Of a DNA stretch of 64,000 nt, positions 7,852 to 55,693 are shown piece after piece. Positions within the stretch are counted from its first letter, which is position 1, and each line of letters opens with the position of its first letter. This DNA is from Caulobacter flavus (GTDB lineage: Bacteria > Pseudomonadota > Alphaproteobacteria > Caulobacterales > Caulobacteraceae). The stretch is taken from the NCBI RefSeq assembly GCF_003722335.1, contig NZ_CP026100.1:5368001-5432000 (forward strand), read 5' to 3'. Position numbers and translations under genes: made by a program. The notes beneath the pieces are model-generated. The model worked only from the letters and a program-made list of their open reading frames with translations. It had not been told where the DNA came from and did not search any database.

Positions 7852-9303
7852 GTGACCACCGACACCGCCGCCGCCAGCCAGGCCCTGCGCCTCTCGGCCA
7901 CCAGCTTCCCGGCCGCCCTACCCGGCGTGGCCCTGCCGGCCTACGACCGCGACAAGGTGGAGATCGGCGTGGTCCACTTCGGTCCCGGAGCTTTTCACCG
8001 CGCCCACCAGGCCTTCTATTTCGACCAGCTGCTGGCCAGCGATCCGCGCTGGGGGATCTGCGCCGTCTCGCTGAAGAGCCCTGGCGTGCGCGACGCCCTC
8101 TCGCCGCAGGACGGGCTCTACACCCTGGCCCAGCTGGATCATGAGACCAGCTTCCGGGTCATCGGCTCGATCATCGAAGTGCTGGTCGCGCCGGAAGACC
8201 CCGAGGCCGTGTTCGCCCGACTGGCCGCGCCGCAAACCCGCCTCGTCACCCTGACCGTCACCGAGAAGGGCTACACCCTGACCGGCGAGGGCAAGCTGGA
8301 CACCGCCCACCCCGACATCGTCCACGACCTGGCCTCGCCCGGCCGTCCGGTCAGCGCGGTGGGCTACATCGTCGAGGGCCTGCGCCGACGCTTCGCTGCC
8401 GGCCTGCCGCCCTATGCCGTGGCGGCCTGCGACAACCTCGCCGACAACGGCTGGCGGCTGAAGGCGGCAACGGTGGCCTTTGCGGAAGCGCTCGATCCGG
8501 CCCTGGCCTCGTGGATCGAGCAGAACGCCGCCTTCCCGCGCACCATGGTCGACAGCATCACCCCCGCCACCGACGACGCCCTGCGCGCCCGCGTGCAGGC
8601 GGCCACTGGCCTCTTCGACGCCTGGCCGATCCAGCGCGAGGCCTTCACCCAGTGGGTGGTCGAGGACGTGCTGGGCGCCAACGCCCCCGATCTGGGCTCG
8701 GTCGGCGTGACGCTCACCGACGACGTGCGCGGTTTCGAGCGAGCCAAGCTGCGCCTGCTGAACGGGGTGCACTCGACCCTGGCCTATGCCGGCCTGCTGA
8801 AGGGCCACGAGACGGTGTTCGAGGCCGTGAACGACCCCGCCCTGGAGGCCCTGGCCCGCGACCTGATGGCGCAGGACATCATCCCGACCCTGACCGCGCC
8901 GCGCGGTCTGGACCTTGCCGCCTACGCCGAGGCCATCCTCGACCGTTTCCGCAATCCAGAGATCCGTCACCTGCTGAGCCAGATCGCCTGGGACGGCTCG
9001 CAGAAGCTGCCGTTCCGTATCCTCGGCACGGTGAAGGACACGCTGGAAGCCGGCCGTAGCGTCGAGCGCCTGGCCGTGCCGATCGCCGCCTGGTTCCACT
9101 TCCTCAAGACGCGCGCCGCCGAGGGCGCGGCCGTCACCGACCCTCTGGCCGACCGCCTGCTGGCCGTGGTCCAGGCCCTGCCGGGCGACGTGAAGGGCGA
9201 CGTCGCGGCCTTCCTGGCGGTCGAGGCGGTGTTCCCGGCGGAACTGGCGGGCGACGCGCGGTTCGTGGCGGCGGTCGAGAAGGCCTACGGCGAACGCGTC
9301 TGA
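7852..9303 (+). CDS. Mannitol dehydrogenase family oxidoreductase (mannitol 2-dehydrogenase or fructuronate reductase)
   Basis: A 483-residue NAD(P)-dependent polyol dehydrogenase of the long-chain mannitol dehydrogenase family. The N-terminal nucleotide-binding domain has VVHFGPGAFHRAHQA. The C-terminal domain carries the family Lys-Asn-His active-site motif as KLRLLNGVHST. Typical members interconvert mannitol and fructose, or fructuronate and mannonate (UxuB); sequence alone does not separate these. GTG at 7852 is chosen as start: it follows GAGG (7841-7844), gives a family-normal length, and no in-frame ATG precedes the conserved Rossmann strand. No other sugar-use genes adjoin it. Confidence 0.85.
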   Translation: MTTDTAAASQALRLSATSFPAALPGVALPAYDRDKVEIGVVHFGPGAFHRAHQAFYFDQLLASDPRWGICAVSLKSPGVRDALSPQDGLYTLAQLDHETSFRVIGSIIEVLVAPEDPEAVFARLAAPQTRLVTLTVTEKGYTLTGEGKLDTAHPDIVHDLASPGRPVSAVGYIVEGLRRRFAAGLPPYAVAACDNLADNGWRLKAATVAFAEALDPALASWIEQNAAFPRTMVDSITPATDDALRARVQAATGLFDAWPIQREAFTQWVVEDVLGANAPDLGSVGVTLTDDVRGFERAKLRLLNGVHSTLAYAGLLKGHETVFEAVNDPALEALARDLMAQDIIPTLTAPRGLDLAAYAEAILDRFRNPEIRHLLSQIAWDGSQKLPFRILGTVKDTLEAGRSVERLAVPIAAWFHFLKTRAAEGAAVTDPLADRLLAVVQALPGDVKGDVAAFLAVEAVFPAELAGDARFVAAVEKAYGERV

Positions 9304-16914: not shown

Positions 16915-16942
16915 GGCGGAGGGAGCGCTGCCTCCCTCCGCC
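16915..16942 (+). terminator. Hairpin directly after cysNC
   Basis: Perfect 11-bp arms GGCGGAGGGAG and CTCCCTCCGCC with a 6-base loop, starting at the base after the cysNC stop. There is no U-run, so it may terminate weakly or protect the mRNA end. The larger inverted repeat at 16943 adjoins it. Confidence 0.6.
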
Positions 16943-17080
16943 TCCCGTCATTCCCGCCCTTGTGGCGGGAACCTCTCTGTCGACCGCAAGGGCAGATGAG
17001 GCGGACTGCTCAGCAGTCCGCTGGCACTTCACCTGCGAGCGGAGCCAGGGGTTCCCGCCACAAGGGCGGGAATGACGGGA
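16943..17080. repeat. Large inverted repeat with perfect 30-bp arms and inner hairpin
   Basis: Arms at 16943-16972 and 17051-17080 are exact reverse complements (starting TCCCGTCATTCCCGCC). The 78-bp centre holds a second perfect hairpin at 17001-17021 (GCGGACTGCT/AGCAGTCCGC). It lies between the convergent cysNC and MFS genes. The outer TCATTCCCG pattern resembles, but is not identical to, the TCATCCCGG elements at 37783 and 43510. Confidence 0.8.
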
Positions 17081-17091
17081 GCTATTGAAGG

Positions 17092-18308: not shown

Positions 18309-18406
18309 CCCCCCTCAGTCGCTTCGCGACAGCTCCCCCAGAGGGGGAGCATCTTGCTGACTAGATCCTCCCCCTCCGGGGGAGGTGGCCCGAAGGGCCG
18401 GAGGGC
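18309..18406. repeat. GC-rich palindromic intergenic repeat, family A
   Basis: A composite of small hairpins: CAGTCGCTTCGCGACAG-like, CTCCCCCAGAGGGGGAG, CCTCCCCCTCCGGGGGAGG and GGCCCGAAGGGCC. The same order and nearly the same bases recur at 55597-55693, and a related version lies within a coding sequence at 40368-40485. It fills the gap between metG and the MFS gene. Confidence 0.8.
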
Positions 18407-22086: not shown

Positions 22087-22889
22087 AGCGCCTGCTGCTC
22101 GCCTTGGCGATGGCGGCCCTGGCCTCGCCCGCCTTCGCCGCGCCCCGGCTGATCTGGTCGGACGAGTTCGACGGCGATCAGCTGGATCCGGCCCGGTGGA
22201 CGGCGGCGACCGACTGCTGGGGCGGCGGCAACGAGGAGCGCCAGTGCTACACGCCGGCCAACGTCTCGGTCTCGGGAGGGGTGCTGCGGCTGAACGCCCG
22301 CAAGGAGCGCGCGTCGGGCTCGGCCCGTCGCGACGGCGGCCCCCGCGTGAGCCGCGACTACGCCTCGGGCGGGGTCAGCACCAAGGGGCTGGCCTCGTTC
22401 CGCTACGGCCGCATCGAGGTGCGCGCCAAGCTGCCGCTAGGCCAGGGGCTGTGGCCGGCGATCTGGATGCTGCCCGAGCACGACAACTACGGCCCCTACC
22501 CGCTGTCGGGCGAGATCGACATCGCGGAAGCGGTGAACCTTGGGGTGCGCTGCCGATCCTGCCGCGACCGGGTGCGGGCGGCGGTGCATCATGGCCCGAC
22601 GCTGCAGGCCAACCGCAGCGACTCGGCCGACACGGCCCTGGGCGACCTGACGGCCTTCCACGTCTTCACGCTGGAATGGACGCCCGATCGGCTGACCTGG
22701 CGGCTGGACGGAAAGCCTTACTTCACCCGCCCGGGCGGGCGCCCCTTCGACGAGCGCTTCCACCTGATCCTCAACCTGGCGGTTGGCGGACGGTGGGCGG
22801 AAGTCACGGGCCGGCGCGGCGTCGACGACGCCGCCTTGCCCGAGAGCCTGCTGGTGGACTGGGTGCGGGTGTACGCCCTGGACGACTAG
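22083..22889 (+). CDS. Secreted GH16 family glycoside hydrolase (endo-beta-glucanase type)
   Basis: A 268-residue enzyme with a signal peptide (KRLLLALAMAALASPAFA) and one GH16 jelly-roll domain. The catalytic signature is GEIDIAEAV, containing the nucleophile and acid/base glutamates. Family blocks include LIWSDEFDGDQLDPARW, YGRIEVRAKLPLGQGLWPAIWMLP (in two parts) and FHLILNLAVGGRW. GH16 enzymes cut beta-1,3, beta-1,3-1,4 and related glucans or galactans; the extra Cys pair in RCRSCRDR may mark a subgroup. GTG at 22083 overlaps the deacetylase stop (GTGA), indicating translational coupling. Confidence 0.9.
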   Translation: MKRLLLALAMAALASPAFAAPRLIWSDEFDGDQLDPARWTAATDCWGGGNEERQCYTPANVSVSGGVLRLNARKERASGSARRDGGPRVSRDYASGGVSTKGLASFRYGRIEVRAKLPLGQGLWPAIWMLPEHDNYGPYPLSGEIDIAEAVNLGVRCRSCRDRVRAAVHHGPTLQANRSDSADTALGDLTAFHVFTLEWTPDRLTWRLDGKPYFTRPGGRPFDERFHLILNLAVGGRWAEVTGRRGVDDAALPESLLVDWVRVYALDD

Positions 22890-39746: not shown

Positions 39747-42314
39747 ATGGTTCCGGCCGACCTTCTTCCCCCGCGCTTTTCCCAGTGGTTCGCCGCCCGC
39801 GGCTGGTCTCCGCGCGCCCACCAGCTGGCGATGGTCGAGAAGGCCAAGGCCGGTCGCGACGCCCTGCTGATCGCGCCCACGGGCGGCGGCAAGACCCTGG
39901 CGGGCTTCCTGCCCAGCCTGATCGAGCTCCACGAGCGTCCGCCGCGCAACACGCCGGCCGGCATTCACACCCTCTACATCTCGCCGCTCAAGGCCCTGGC
40001 CGTCGACGTCGAGCGCAACCTGATGACGCCGATCCGCGAGATGGGCCTGTCGATCATCGCCGAGAGCCGCACCGGCGACACCGGCGAGAGCCGCAAGGCC
40101 CGCCAGCGCATCCGTCCGCCCGACATCCTGCTGACCACGCCCGAGCAGCTGGCCCTGTTCTGCGCCTGGGAGGGCGCGCGGGAATACTTCGCCGACCTCT
40201 CCTGCGTGATCGTCGACGAGGCCCACGCCATGTGGCCGTCCAAGCGCGGCGACCTGCTGGCGCTCGACATCGCGCGACTGCAGCTGTTCGCCCCCCGGAT
40301 GCGCCGGGTGGGCCTGTCGGCGACGGTGGACGATCCGGACCTGGTGCGGCGGTGGCTGGGCAGAAATCCTCCCCCTGTGGGGGAGGTGGCGCGCAGCGCC
40401 GGTGGGGGGACGGTTTCAGCTGTTCGAACGCCTGAACACTCCCCCCCTCCGATCGCTACGCGATCACCTCCCCCACAGGGGGAGGTTCCTTTCTCCGTCG
40501 ACCTCGTCCTAGGCTCCGGCGGCGCCCAGCCGGTCGTGGAGGTCCTCGTCTCCGGCGGGCGCGTGCCGTGGGCGGGGCACACCGCCCAGCACGCCATGGC
40601 CGAGGTCTACGAGATCATCGCCGCCAGCCGTACGGCGCTGGTGTTCGTCAACACGCGCTTCCAGGCCGAGTTCGCGTTCCAGGAGCTTTGGAAGCTCAAC
40701 GACGAGGGCCTGCCGATCGCCCTGCACCACGGCAGCCTGTCGGCCGAGCAGCGGCGCAAGGTCGAGGCCGCCATGGCCCGGGGCGAGCTGCGGGCCGTGG
40801 TCTGCACCTCGACGCTGGACATGGGCATCGACTGGGGCGACGTCGACCTCGTCATTCAGCTGGCAGCGCCCAAGGGGGCCTCGCGGATGGTGCAACGGAT
40901 CGGCCGCGCCAACCACCGCCTGGACGAGCCCAGCCGCGCCCTGTTCGTGCCCGCCAGCCGGTTCGAGATGCTGGAGTGCCGGGCGGCCGCCGACAGCATC
41001 CTCGAAGGCCACCTCGACGGCGAGCCGGCCCGCGTGGGCGCCCTCGACGTGCTGGCCCAGCACGTGATGGGCTGCGCCTGCTCCGAACCGTTCAAGCTGC
41101 TCGATCTCTACGACGAGGTCCGCACCGCCGGCCCCTATGCCGACCTGTCGTGGGAGGATTTCGAGACCGTCGTCGATTTCGTTTCCACCGGCGGCTACGC
41201 GCTTAAGACCTATGATCGCTTCCGCCGGATCGTCGAAGACCAGGACGGCTTGTGGAAGGCCCGCAACGCCCAGGTAATCCAGCGCCACCGAATGAACGTC
41301 GGCGCCATCGTCTCGCCGGCGGTCGTCAATGTGAGGATCGGCGGCGGCCGCAGACCCATGGGCGGGCGCAAGATCGGCGAGGCCGAGGAGGGCTATTTCG
41401 AACAGCTGACACCCGGCGACACCTTCGTGTTCGCCGGCCAGGTCTGGCGGTTCAACAGCCTGGTGGGCGCCGACGCCTACGTCTCGCCCGCCCCGGCCAA
41501 GGACCCCAAGATGCCCAGCTGGGGCGGCTCGAAGTTTCCGCTCTCGACCTATCTGGCCGGCCGCGTGCGCAAGATGATGCACGACGAGGCCGAGTGGACC
41601 GCCCTGCCGCCCGACGTGCAGGAGTGGATGGCCTACCAGAAGGCCCGCTCGATCATCCCCGACGAGGACGAGATGCTGCTGGAGACCTTCCCCCGCGGGA
41701 AGCGGTTCCACATGGTCATCTATCCGTTCGAAGGGCGCCTGGCCCACACCACGCTGGCCATGCTGCTGACCCGTCGGCTGGACCGGCTGGGGGTCGGGCC
41801 GCTGGGCTTCGTCTGCAACGACTACGCGCTGAACATCTGGTCGCTGAAGCCGATGGACGACCTGGATCTTCCCGATCTGTTCGACCAGGACATGCTGGGC
41901 GACGACCTGGAGGACTGGCTGAACGAGAGCTTCCTGATGAAGCGCGCCTTCAAGGCCTGCGCCCTGGTTGGCGGGCTGATCGAGCGGCGCTATCCAGGCG
42001 AGGAGAAGTCGGGCCGCCAGGTGACCTTCTCGACCGACCTGATCTACGACGTGCTGCGCAAGCACCAGCCCGACCACCTGCTGCTGCGCTGCGCCCGGTC
42101 CGATGCGGCGACCGGTCAGCTGGACGTGGCCCGCCTTGGCGATCTGCTGGCCCGCATCAGGGGCCGCATCCGCCATGCGGCGCTGGACAAGGTTTCGCCC
42201 TTCGCCGTGCCGATCATGCTGGAGATCGGCCGCGAGCGCGCGCCCGGCGACGCGGCCAGCGACATGATCCTGGCCGAGGCGGAGGAAGACCTGATCGCGG
42301 AGGCCCTTTCCTGA
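39747..42314 (+). CDS. lhr: Ligase-associated DNA helicase (Lhr family), with repeat-encoded insert
   Basis: An 855-residue superfamily 2 helicase of the ligase-associated DEXH-box group. Motifs: APTGGGKTLAGFLP (Walker A), YISPLKALAVDV, IVDEAHAMW (DEAH form), GLSATVDDPDLV, ALVFVNTRFQAEF, VVCTSTLDMGIDWGDVD and QRIGRANHRLDEP, then the C-terminal winged-helix and Lhr-specific domain (DEMLLETFPRGKRFHMVIYPFEG, split here by family blocks DEMLLETFPRG and FHMVIYPFEG). About 40 residues rich in Pro/Gly (NPPPVGEVARSAGGG ... SPPPQGEVPF) between the SAT motif and the second RecA domain are encoded by a palindromic repeat at 40368-40485. The pdeM gene follows 13 bp later. Confidence 0.92.
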   Translation: MVPADLLPPRFSQWFAARGWSPRAHQLAMVEKAKAGRDALLIAPTGGGKTLAGFLPSLIELHERPPRNTPAGIHTLYISPLKALAVDVERNLMTPIREMGLSIIAESRTGDTGESRKARQRIRPPDILLTTPEQLALFCAWEGAREYFADLSCVIVDEAHAMWPSKRGDLLALDIARLQLFAPRMRRVGLSATVDDPDLVRRWLGRNPPPVGEVARSAGGGTVSAVRTPEHSPPPIATRSPPPQGEVPFSVDLVLGSGGAQPVVEVLVSGGRVPWAGHTAQHAMAEVYEIIAASRTALVFVNTRFQAEFAFQELWKLNDEGLPIALHHGSLSAEQRRKVEAAMARGELRAVVCTSTLDMGIDWGDVDLVIQLAAPKGASRMVQRIGRANHRLDEPSRALFVPASRFEMLECRAAADSILEGHLDGEPARVGALDVLAQHVMGCACSEPFKLLDLYDEVRTAGPYADLSWEDFETVVDFVSTGGYALKTYDRFRRIVEDQDGLWKARNAQVIQRHRMNVGAIVSPAVVNVRIGGGRRPMGGRKIGEAEEGYFEQLTPGDTFVFAGQVWRFNSLVGADAYVSPAPAKDPKMPSWGGSKFPLSTYLAGRVRKMMHDEAEWTALPPDVQEWMAYQKARSIIPDEDEMLLETFPRGKRFHMVIYPFEGRLAHTTLAMLLTRRLDRLGVGPLGFVCNDYALNIWSLKPMDDLDLPDLFDQDMLGDDLEDWLNESFLMKRAFKACALVGGLIERRYPGEEKSGRQVTFSTDLIYDVLRKHQPDHLLLRCARSDAATGQLDVARLGDLLARIRGRIRHAALDKVSPFAVPIMLEIGRERAPGDAASDMILAEAEEDLIAEALS
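40368..40485. repeat. Family A-type palindromic repeat inside the lhr coding sequence
   Basis: Perfect 21-bp inverted arms at 40368-40388 and 40465-40485 (CCTCCCCCTGTGGGGGAGG and its complement), with GGCGCGCAGCGCC after the left arm and CGATCGCTACGCGATC before the right arm. The layout resembles the intergenic elements at 18309 and 55597. It does not break the helicase frame and is translated as a low-complexity loop. Confidence 0.85.
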
Positions 42315-42327
42315 TGGTGACGCCCTG

Positions 42328-43035
42328 ATGACGAGGTTCCAGTCCAGCGACTGCGGCGGCCTGGCGGTGCTGGTGGCCCAGCGCCTGGTGCTGCTGCGCG
42401 GCTCCGGCGCCCTGTGGCTGGAGCAGGAGCGCGCCCTGGTGGTTGCCGACCTGCACTTCGAGAAGGGCTCGTCCTACGCCGCGCGCTTTGGCCAGATGCT
42501 GCCGCCCTACGACACCCGCGAGACCCTGACGCGCCTCGAAGCCGAGGTCGTCGCCCTGGCCCCCGCGACCCTGATCTTCCTGGGCGACAGCTTCCACGAC
42601 GGCGCGGCCGAGGATCGCCTGGCCGCCGACGACGCGGCGCGCCTGCGCGCCCTCTCCGTCGGCCGCGACCTGATCTGGGCGGTGGGCAACCATGACGCAG
42701 ACGGCCCCCGCGCCCTGCCCGGCCAGATCATGGACGAGCTGTCCATCGGCGGGCTGATCCTGCGCCACGAGCCAGAGCCCGGCGTCCAGCCCGGCGAGGT
42801 GGCCGGCCACCTGCATCCAGCCGCTCGCGTCTCCAGCGGCCGCGGCAGCGTACGCAAGCGCTGCTTCGTCACCGACGGCCAGCGCCTGATCCTGCCCGCC
42901 TTCGGCGCCTATACCGGGGGTCTCAACATCCTCGACCAGGCGTTCTCGAACCTGTTCGCCGCCCCGCCCCTGGCCGGCGCTCTGGGCGGAAAGCGGGTGC
43001 ACGCAGTGGGTCCACGCTCGCTGCGGCCGGACTGA
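42328..43035 (+). CDS. pdeM: Ligase-associated metallophosphoesterase PdeM
   Basis: A 235-residue calcineurin-like phosphoesterase of the ligase-associated DNA damage response group. Metal and catalytic motifs are VVADLHFEKGS, FLGDSFHDG, AVGNHDADGP, ILRHEPEP and AGHLHPAAR. In other bacteria pdeM is found next to lhr and often to a DNA ligase and a beta-CASP-type exonuclease gene, and PdeM is a manganese-dependent phosphodiesterase. Here only lhr accompanies it. Its start lies 13 bp after the lhr stop, so the two are one operon. Confidence 0.93.
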   Translation: MTRFQSSDCGGLAVLVAQRLVLLRGSGALWLEQERALVVADLHFEKGSSYAARFGQMLPPYDTRETLTRLEAEVVALAPATLIFLGDSFHDGAAEDRLAADDAARLRALSVGRDLIWAVGNHDADGPRALPGQIMDELSIGGLILRHEPEPGVQPGEVAGHLHPAARVSSGRGSVRKRCFVTDGQRLILPAFGAYTGGLNILDQAFSNLFAAPPLAGALGGKRVHAVGPRSLRPD

Positions 43036-55596: not shown

Positions 55597-55693
55597 CCCC
55601 CTCAGTCGCTCTGCGACAGCTCCCCCAGAGTGAGAGCACCCGCGGCATAGATCCTCCCCCTCTGGGGGAGGTGGCCCAGAGGGCCGGAGGGGG
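55597..55693. repeat. GC-rich palindromic intergenic repeat, family A
   Basis: Same order of hairpins as 18309-18406: CCCCCTCAGTCGCT, CTCCCCCAGAG, TCCTCCCCCTCTGGGGGAGG and GGCCCAGAGGGCC. A separate hairpin GATCGCC-TAC-GGCGATC (55581-55597) directly precedes it at the crp stop. Confidence 0.8.

Follow-up and report, generated by a model that had tools for sequence, protein, structure and literature searches.

Palindromic repeats exchanged at an in-frame site of a Caulobacter helicase gene, and a possible link to DUF559 nuclease genes

How does a palindromic repeat come to lie in frame within a conserved protein gene, and what is found at the same site in related species? This question was raised by a locus in a 64,000-nucleotide stretch of the Caulobacter flavus genome (contig NZ_CP026100.1, positions 5,368,001 to 5,432,000 of the forward strand), hereafter called the window. 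Rickettsia palindromic elements (RPE), which are palindromes of 105-146 bp, occur both between genes and in frame inside protein genes, and a reference title in the same source concerns protein-coding palindromes of Wolbachia, according to the accessible part of that text (PMC2229807).

A palindromic element inside the helicase gene

The element occupies positions 40368..40485 (+ strand) of an open reading frame at 39747..42314 (+, 855 aa). The gene product was assigned to the ligase-associated DEXH helicases (Lhr family) by the profile TIGR04121 (1068 bits against a cut-off of 850), by the Pfam domains DEAD, Helicase_C, WH_Lhr and DEAD_assoc, and by its fold, for which the top PDB match was M. 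smegmatis Lhr (5v9x, TM 0.70 by query). The gene of the ligase-associated endonuclease PdeM follows at 42328..43035 (+; TIGR04123, 217 bits). The original prediction had described a 118-bp element with perfect 21-bp arms in frame in lhr, and this observation was confirmed. The arms at 40368-40388 and 40465-40485 are 21 nt each, 100% complementary and separated by 76 nt; the frame stays open throughout and about 40 residues are encoded. When the window was shuffled 40 times (first-order Markov), the longest pair of inverted arms found within 300 bp measured 12-16 nt.

As read from the sequence, the element consists of two converging half-units of 42 and 46 bp, each with a strong and a small hairpin. 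The left one (40368..40409, +) contains the hairpin CCTCCCCC-TGT-GGGGGAGG, then the small hairpin and then GGTGGGGGG; the right one (40440..40485, -) is inverted. They flank a 30-bp spacer (40410..40439, +), the position at which a long copy outside the window carries a DUF559 gene. With up to three mismatches allowed, the arm pattern was matched six times in the window (0.01 expected by chance). The likeness that had been claimed to the intergenic repeats near 18309 and 55597 holds for the half-unit but not for its arrangement: the units at 18312..18405 and 55597..55693 diverge, with the big hairpins central, whereas the lhr units converge with the big hairpins outside. No Rfam family reached its gathering score in the window. 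Two further intergenic palindromes were observed there, one between convergent genes at 16942-17081 with 32-bp perfect arms (GTCATTCCCGCC type) and one at 2437-2578 with 25-bp perfect arms of another sequence.

The element belongs to a genome-wide palindromic repeat, as had been proposed, which we call family A (all family letters are our own naming). The exact arm pattern CCTCCCCCNNNGGGGGAGGYG was matched 117 times in the 5.66-Mb genome (5,659,202 bp, one contig) and its reversed control not once; the arms are thus not absent elsewhere. Among the 100 of 117 arm places that were listed, converging arm pairs lay 86-108 bp apart in ten cases and 418 bp apart in one. A census was made on 102 genome stretches around copies (two of them without a hairpin by regular expression), and the coding potential of the flanks was taken from a codon model trained on the window. 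It covers family A only and a part of its copies, at 113 non-overlapping places, with one long copy (L220) counted twice. At 6 of the 113 places both flanks were coding on one strand and in one frame, and of these the frame stayed open through the repeat in the helicase copy alone; the copy L206 was stop-free across, but the best frames differed on its two sides. The search for arm copies within genes that the original prediction had suggested thus returned a single place (1/113) that is intragenic and open in one frame, and intragenic copies of family A are exceptional in this genome. The flanking genes were convergent at 39 places, divergent at 2 and tandem at 24, and at least one side was non-coding at 48; neighbouring gene pairs in the window (our own gene prediction) were 9 convergent, 8 divergent and 34 tandem. 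Eight A copies (L004, L006, L008, L019, L021, L022, L029 and L030) end at TCCCCC and are bordered by TCGTTGCATAATGGGGTAAAAC or CTGTTGCGAAATTCGGAACGTCGAA on either strand, as if nested in that other repeat.

Repeats called CIR were reportedly described in Caulobacter by Chen and Shapiro in 2003. In the accessible part of a later paper, CIR are described as intergenic, about 110 bp long and built with two inverted-repeat arms; CIR1-4 carry GANTC, and CIR are said not to be found intragenically (PMC2229807). The lhr element is a Caulobacter repeat of similar size with two inverted arms as well. Unlike CIR1-4, it is intragenic and contains no GANTC site (5 of 28 other family-A copies of the genome do), a separation made by description and not by sequence.

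The effect of the insert on the protein was examined with AlphaFold2 (43-row alignment; mean pLDDT 80.2, pTM 0.81). The pLDDT fell below 50 at residues 211-247, between a helix (197-204) and a strand (251-255). The insert is predicted to be a disordered Pro/Gly-rich loop between the two RecA domains, in agreement with the earlier view that about 40 such residues are tolerated as a loop. The helicase gene itself is under strong constraint: over 22,702 codon pairs from eight close species, 705 differences fall on the first codon position, 415 on the second and 3913 on the third. Those close relatives that bear a name are Caulobacter.

Occupants of the helicase site and of intergenic slots

The site, delimited by the end of the helix that follows the SAT motif and by the strand VDLVLG, was compared across the genus. 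Some helicase match was present in 75/75 genus genomes, and the gene was taken from 68 (G037, G054, G055, G060, G063, G066 and G067 were left out). An in-frame site was obtained from 64 of the 68; the others had a frameshift (G072), a run of N (G027) or a contig break at the site (G028 and G064). The site held 108-177 bp in 36 of the 64 sequences, 39-66 bp in 9 and at most 36 bp in 19, and the insert length was a multiple of three in all 64. Families were labelled by alignment to representatives, except for L042 and L081 (the B and E representatives) and L061 (C; best score 18.2), which were set by hand. There were 26 A-type inserts (A1, A2 and D), 8 of family B, 1 of C, 3 of E, 19 near-empty sites and 7 without a label.

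An insert present only in C. flavus, at an otherwise gap-free site, had been expected. This part did not hold: at least 108 bp of different repeats occur in 36/64 Caulobacter sites, and further repeats occur in selected loci of other genera. Orthologues with unrelated DNA at the site, which had been named as evidence against an insertion, do exist literally. However, this DNA consists of other palindromic repeats in the same slot, so that the case for insertion is strengthened. The earlier interpretation is therefore partly supported overall, and the occupant of the slot has been exchanged repeatedly.

The exchange is not random on the tree. With merged labels, 20 changes were counted on the 68-row gene tree, as few as in the lowest of 200 shuffles (mean 25.9); the occupants are thus partly inherited. 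The merged count was used as the conservative one because the split of A1 and A2 is fuzzy; a count on the first hand labels, with A1 and A2 split, had given 31 changes and was dropped. Full versus empty sites required 10 changes (shuffle mean 16). For A versus B, 8 changes were needed for the 8 B rows, much as with shuffled labels (mean 7.4, maximum 8). A spread of family B by recombination through the flanks was also considered and is unsupported, as the flanks do not group the B carriers: the best match of the B-insert flanks was an A carrier in 6/8 cases with 60 bp, 7/8 with 120 bp and 8/8 with 240 bp, and the flank tree again gave 8 changes for eight B inserts.

Reduced and compound occupants were found as well. 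In the one-contig genome G072, a one-hairpin remnant of the element (L077) shifts the frame; this is a deletion within the element, and the helicase gene looks broken there. L070 and L074 are one-hairpin remnants that are in frame, and in L035 an A2 element appears by eye to stand beside a leftover arm. A second in-frame insert was observed near helicase residue 536 in four species from different parts of the tree (L082, L095, L099 and L100; 78 bp above the usual length). It carries AAAACCGG-TTCCACTTTTGCTGA, a motif which we take to be typical of alphaproteobacterial intergenic repeats.

Outside the genus, the 20 loci of other Caulobacteraceae genera were picked for matches spanning the site and therefore give no frequency. 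They mostly held other palindromes, including a complex one (L275) and another sequence family (L270); L282 showed no clear palindrome at the site. The genome groups g7 and g3 are probably Phenylobacterium and Brevundimonas-like. The named Phenylobacterium loci L127, L129, L132 and L134 carry helicase inserts, and the named Rhizobiales orthologues have no such insert.

Intergenic copies were followed in the same manner. Four convergent intergenic sites with an A element in C. flavus (of five qualifying; L213 was left out) were traced in eight close relatives, of which 7/8 were matched for the slot L013. All 31 orthologous sites hold a palindromic element, the best family being A in 17, F in 11 and C in 3, so that 14 are not A. 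The sequences of L284 and L290 end short of the right flank, and a single hairpin is visible in L290. By eye, a C-like element lies within F at L313 and C lies in an F remnant at L294. Near 9303, a further slot was filled by differing palindromes or by one-hairpin remnants in 7/8 relatives (L320 is without a clear one), and an ordinary terminator near 22889, taken as a control, was conserved in all four relatives aligned across it (5/8 matched). The slots are thus conserved as occupied places, whereas their content frequently changes. No empty orthologous site occurred among the 31, and for this reason neither an insertion junction nor a target duplication was observed.

Long copies enclosing DUF559 genes

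Family-B arm pairs 424-425 bp apart recur in eight of 26 genomes. Each of these long copies (L328-L335, 447-448 bp) contains a DUF559 gene between its arms (PF04480, E 2.6e-31 for the L330 copy), and all eight lie at one orthologous locus with flanks 87-96% identical. Family A has such a copy in the C. flavus genome itself: L220 (C1:2032025-2032463) encodes a DUF559 protein (PF04480, 9.8e-28) with 44% identity over 82 residues to the B one; a relative of known structure is the endonuclease-like protein 3hrl (E 7.4e-14). The units of L220 resemble the lhr units, the left half-unit 40368..40409 resembling its left unit. DUF559-coding copies with the same units thus exist in two families (L220 and L328-L335) and would be candidates for the autonomous parent that a MITE has, but the B spacers do not match: of 14 spacers, 1 and 3 matched the ends of the long B copies for two motifs. 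An origin of the short B copies by simple internal deletion of the long copy is therefore unsupported.

REPIN and RAYT systems consist of two inverted palindromic units with a spacer, in many short copies, and one resident long copy. The elements described here likewise have two inverted units and a spacer, and the long B copy resides at one orthologous locus in eight species. Unlike in REPINs, the long copy carries a DUF559 nuclease. A RAYT as the driver was rejected, since no Y1_Tnp match (RAYT-type, PF01797) was obtained at E<=0.001 in the C. flavus genome; a control search gave matches in C. vibrioides.

DUF559 relatives were also found in 42 plasmid records, of which 21 were fetched, picked to span taxa. 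In 14 of these 21 loci, inverted arms flank the DUF559 gene with scores above every local control, and an arm forms a self-hairpin with a stem of at least 6 in 13 of the 14. The arm-flanked loci come from six Sphingomonadales records, Sinorhizobium meliloti, Azospirillum lipoferum, four Deinococcus and two cyanobacteria. Arms above control were absent in the other 7/21, alphaproteobacterial loci included: Azospirillum brasilense, A. argentinense, Sinorhizobium sp. K101, Shinella, Methylobacterium, Photobacterium and Picosynechococcus PCC 7002, which ties its control at 12. Several plasmid DUF559 genes are located within a gene cluster, with members of that cluster on both sides (pnt, suf, paa, hpa). 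In two cyanobacterial plasmids (L367 and L368) they lie between arms containing CCCCTAAATCCCC, presumably a common cyanobacterial repeat.

The DUF559 domain places these proteins with the Vsr-type endonucleases of the PD-(D/E)XK superfamily, as it does VsrA. The DUF559 protein VsrA of C. crescentus was interpreted by its authors as a mismatch-repair enzyme, and the string 'palindrom' does not occur in the accessible part of that text (PMC12907096). In a search outside which most subscription journals lay, none of the matches listed connected palindromic repeats with DUF559 or with very short patch repair, and none showed a Caulobacter case of in-frame palindromes; these negatives are weak evidence of novelty. 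The connection of DUF559 genes with the movement of palindromes is a strong lead.

Explanations for the exchange

The reading phase of the inserts bears on how they arrived. One phase is common to 25/25 A inserts tested (of 26; L057 was left out) and one to 8/8 B inserts, all of which read ...GEG...; by eye, L268, a B-like insert outside the genus, uses a different phase. The used phase is open at the helicase in 25/25 A and 8/8 B by definition. The other two phases were open in 14 and 6 of the 25 A inserts and in 5 and 4 of the 8 B inserts, and intergenic copies had about equally open phases (28, 32 and 32 of 49 oriented copies). The single phase in the tested A and B inserts is more readily explained by an inherited junction or by selection than by insertion at random. 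A family-B element was also observed in frame in a second DNA-repair gene, the UdgX / TIGR03915 gene of two relatives (L336 and L337), in the same P-rich phase.

The helicase insert resembles RPE, being a palindrome with terminal inverted repeats that has intergenic copies and lies in frame in a conserved gene, and we call it a variant of protein-coding palindromes. It is unlike RPE in its taxon (compared by description only), in the exchange of the occupants of one site between species, and in the longer copies that enclose a DUF559 gene.

Our explanation, which we consider probable, is that slot occupants are exchanged by a system like that of REPINs, in which a DUF559 protein takes the place of the RAYT transposase. 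The lhr element is a short non-coding member of family A with two inverted double-hairpin units. A slot, whether between genes or inside one, would keep an occupant over long periods, but the occupant itself would change: an incoming palindrome, frequently from a different family, would be inserted into the resident one or displace it, and deletions between the arms would give rise to one-hairpin remnants. In the helicase, purifying selection would remove every outcome that breaks the frame or introduces a stop. Long resident copies exist for at least families A and B, and in them the units surround the gene of a DUF559 (Vsr-like, PD-(D/E)XK) nuclease. We infer that this nuclease is the mover; it may act on the hairpins by cutting at palindromes, and repair would then copy units into the break, a putative cut-and-copy replacement in which DUF559 would have the role that RAYT has for REPINs.

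The constancy of phase, at 25/25 A and 8/8 B inserts tested, also speaks against the alternative to which we give a minor but real chance, namely that an unrelated insertion mechanism acts everywhere, that the disordered loop is one of few coding places where inserts survive, so that several families gather there independently, and that DUF559 is a passenger that likes palindromes. The disorder predicted by AlphaFold, the several dissimilar families at the site and the near-empty sites in 19/64 agree with such tolerance. However, only 1/113 family-A places examined in C. flavus is intragenic and open in one frame, so that a short loop filled in 36/64 would lie far above the general density. 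Family B is moreover rare, its exact arms numbering 0-12 in each of 26 genomes, and the only two exact B arms of G059 are those in its helicase.

That B occupies the site where it is rare genome-wide is also awkward for a single ancient insertion in the Caulobacteraceae ancestor, homogenised by gene conversion with palindromes elsewhere and followed by no new insertion. Such an origin is consistent with the filling of the site by differing repeats in selected loci of several genera, with the constant phase within Caulobacter and with the one architecture that A, D and F share in our reading. We nevertheless think it rather improbable, as conversion is hard to see at the little identity between the dissimilar sequences at the site (B, C, E and L270). 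Finally, a benefit of the flexible Pro/Gly-rich loop or of an mRNA hairpin to the helicase, with any palindrome favoured, would suit the high occupancy and a phase that yields P/G/S-rich rather than Arg-richer readings, but it is very doubtful, because 19/64 species with at most 36 bp retain the gene, the remnant in G072 (L077) shifts the frame and intergenic slots behave alike.

The exchange of slot occupants by a DUF559-dependent system is our probable reading. A wider proposal, which we find slightly easier to doubt than to accept, is that DUF559 (Vsr-like) genes framed by double-hairpin units may form a widespread mobile class, with examples here from Alphaproteobacteria, Deinococcus and Cyanobacteria, and with short derivatives that would be the abundant GC-rich palindromes homing to, and replacing each other at, fixed slots, including in-frame slots in DNA-repair genes. 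If our explanation of the exchange is right, free-living bacteria would have protein-coding palindromes whose history of exchange can be traced species by species, and a Vsr-like nuclease would be a candidate driver for abundant GC-rich palindromes where no RAYT-type gene is found. It would also suggest a role of DUF559 proteins other than mismatch repair, and the helicase loop would be a part of a protein that mobile DNA has repeatedly rewritten while the gene was retained.
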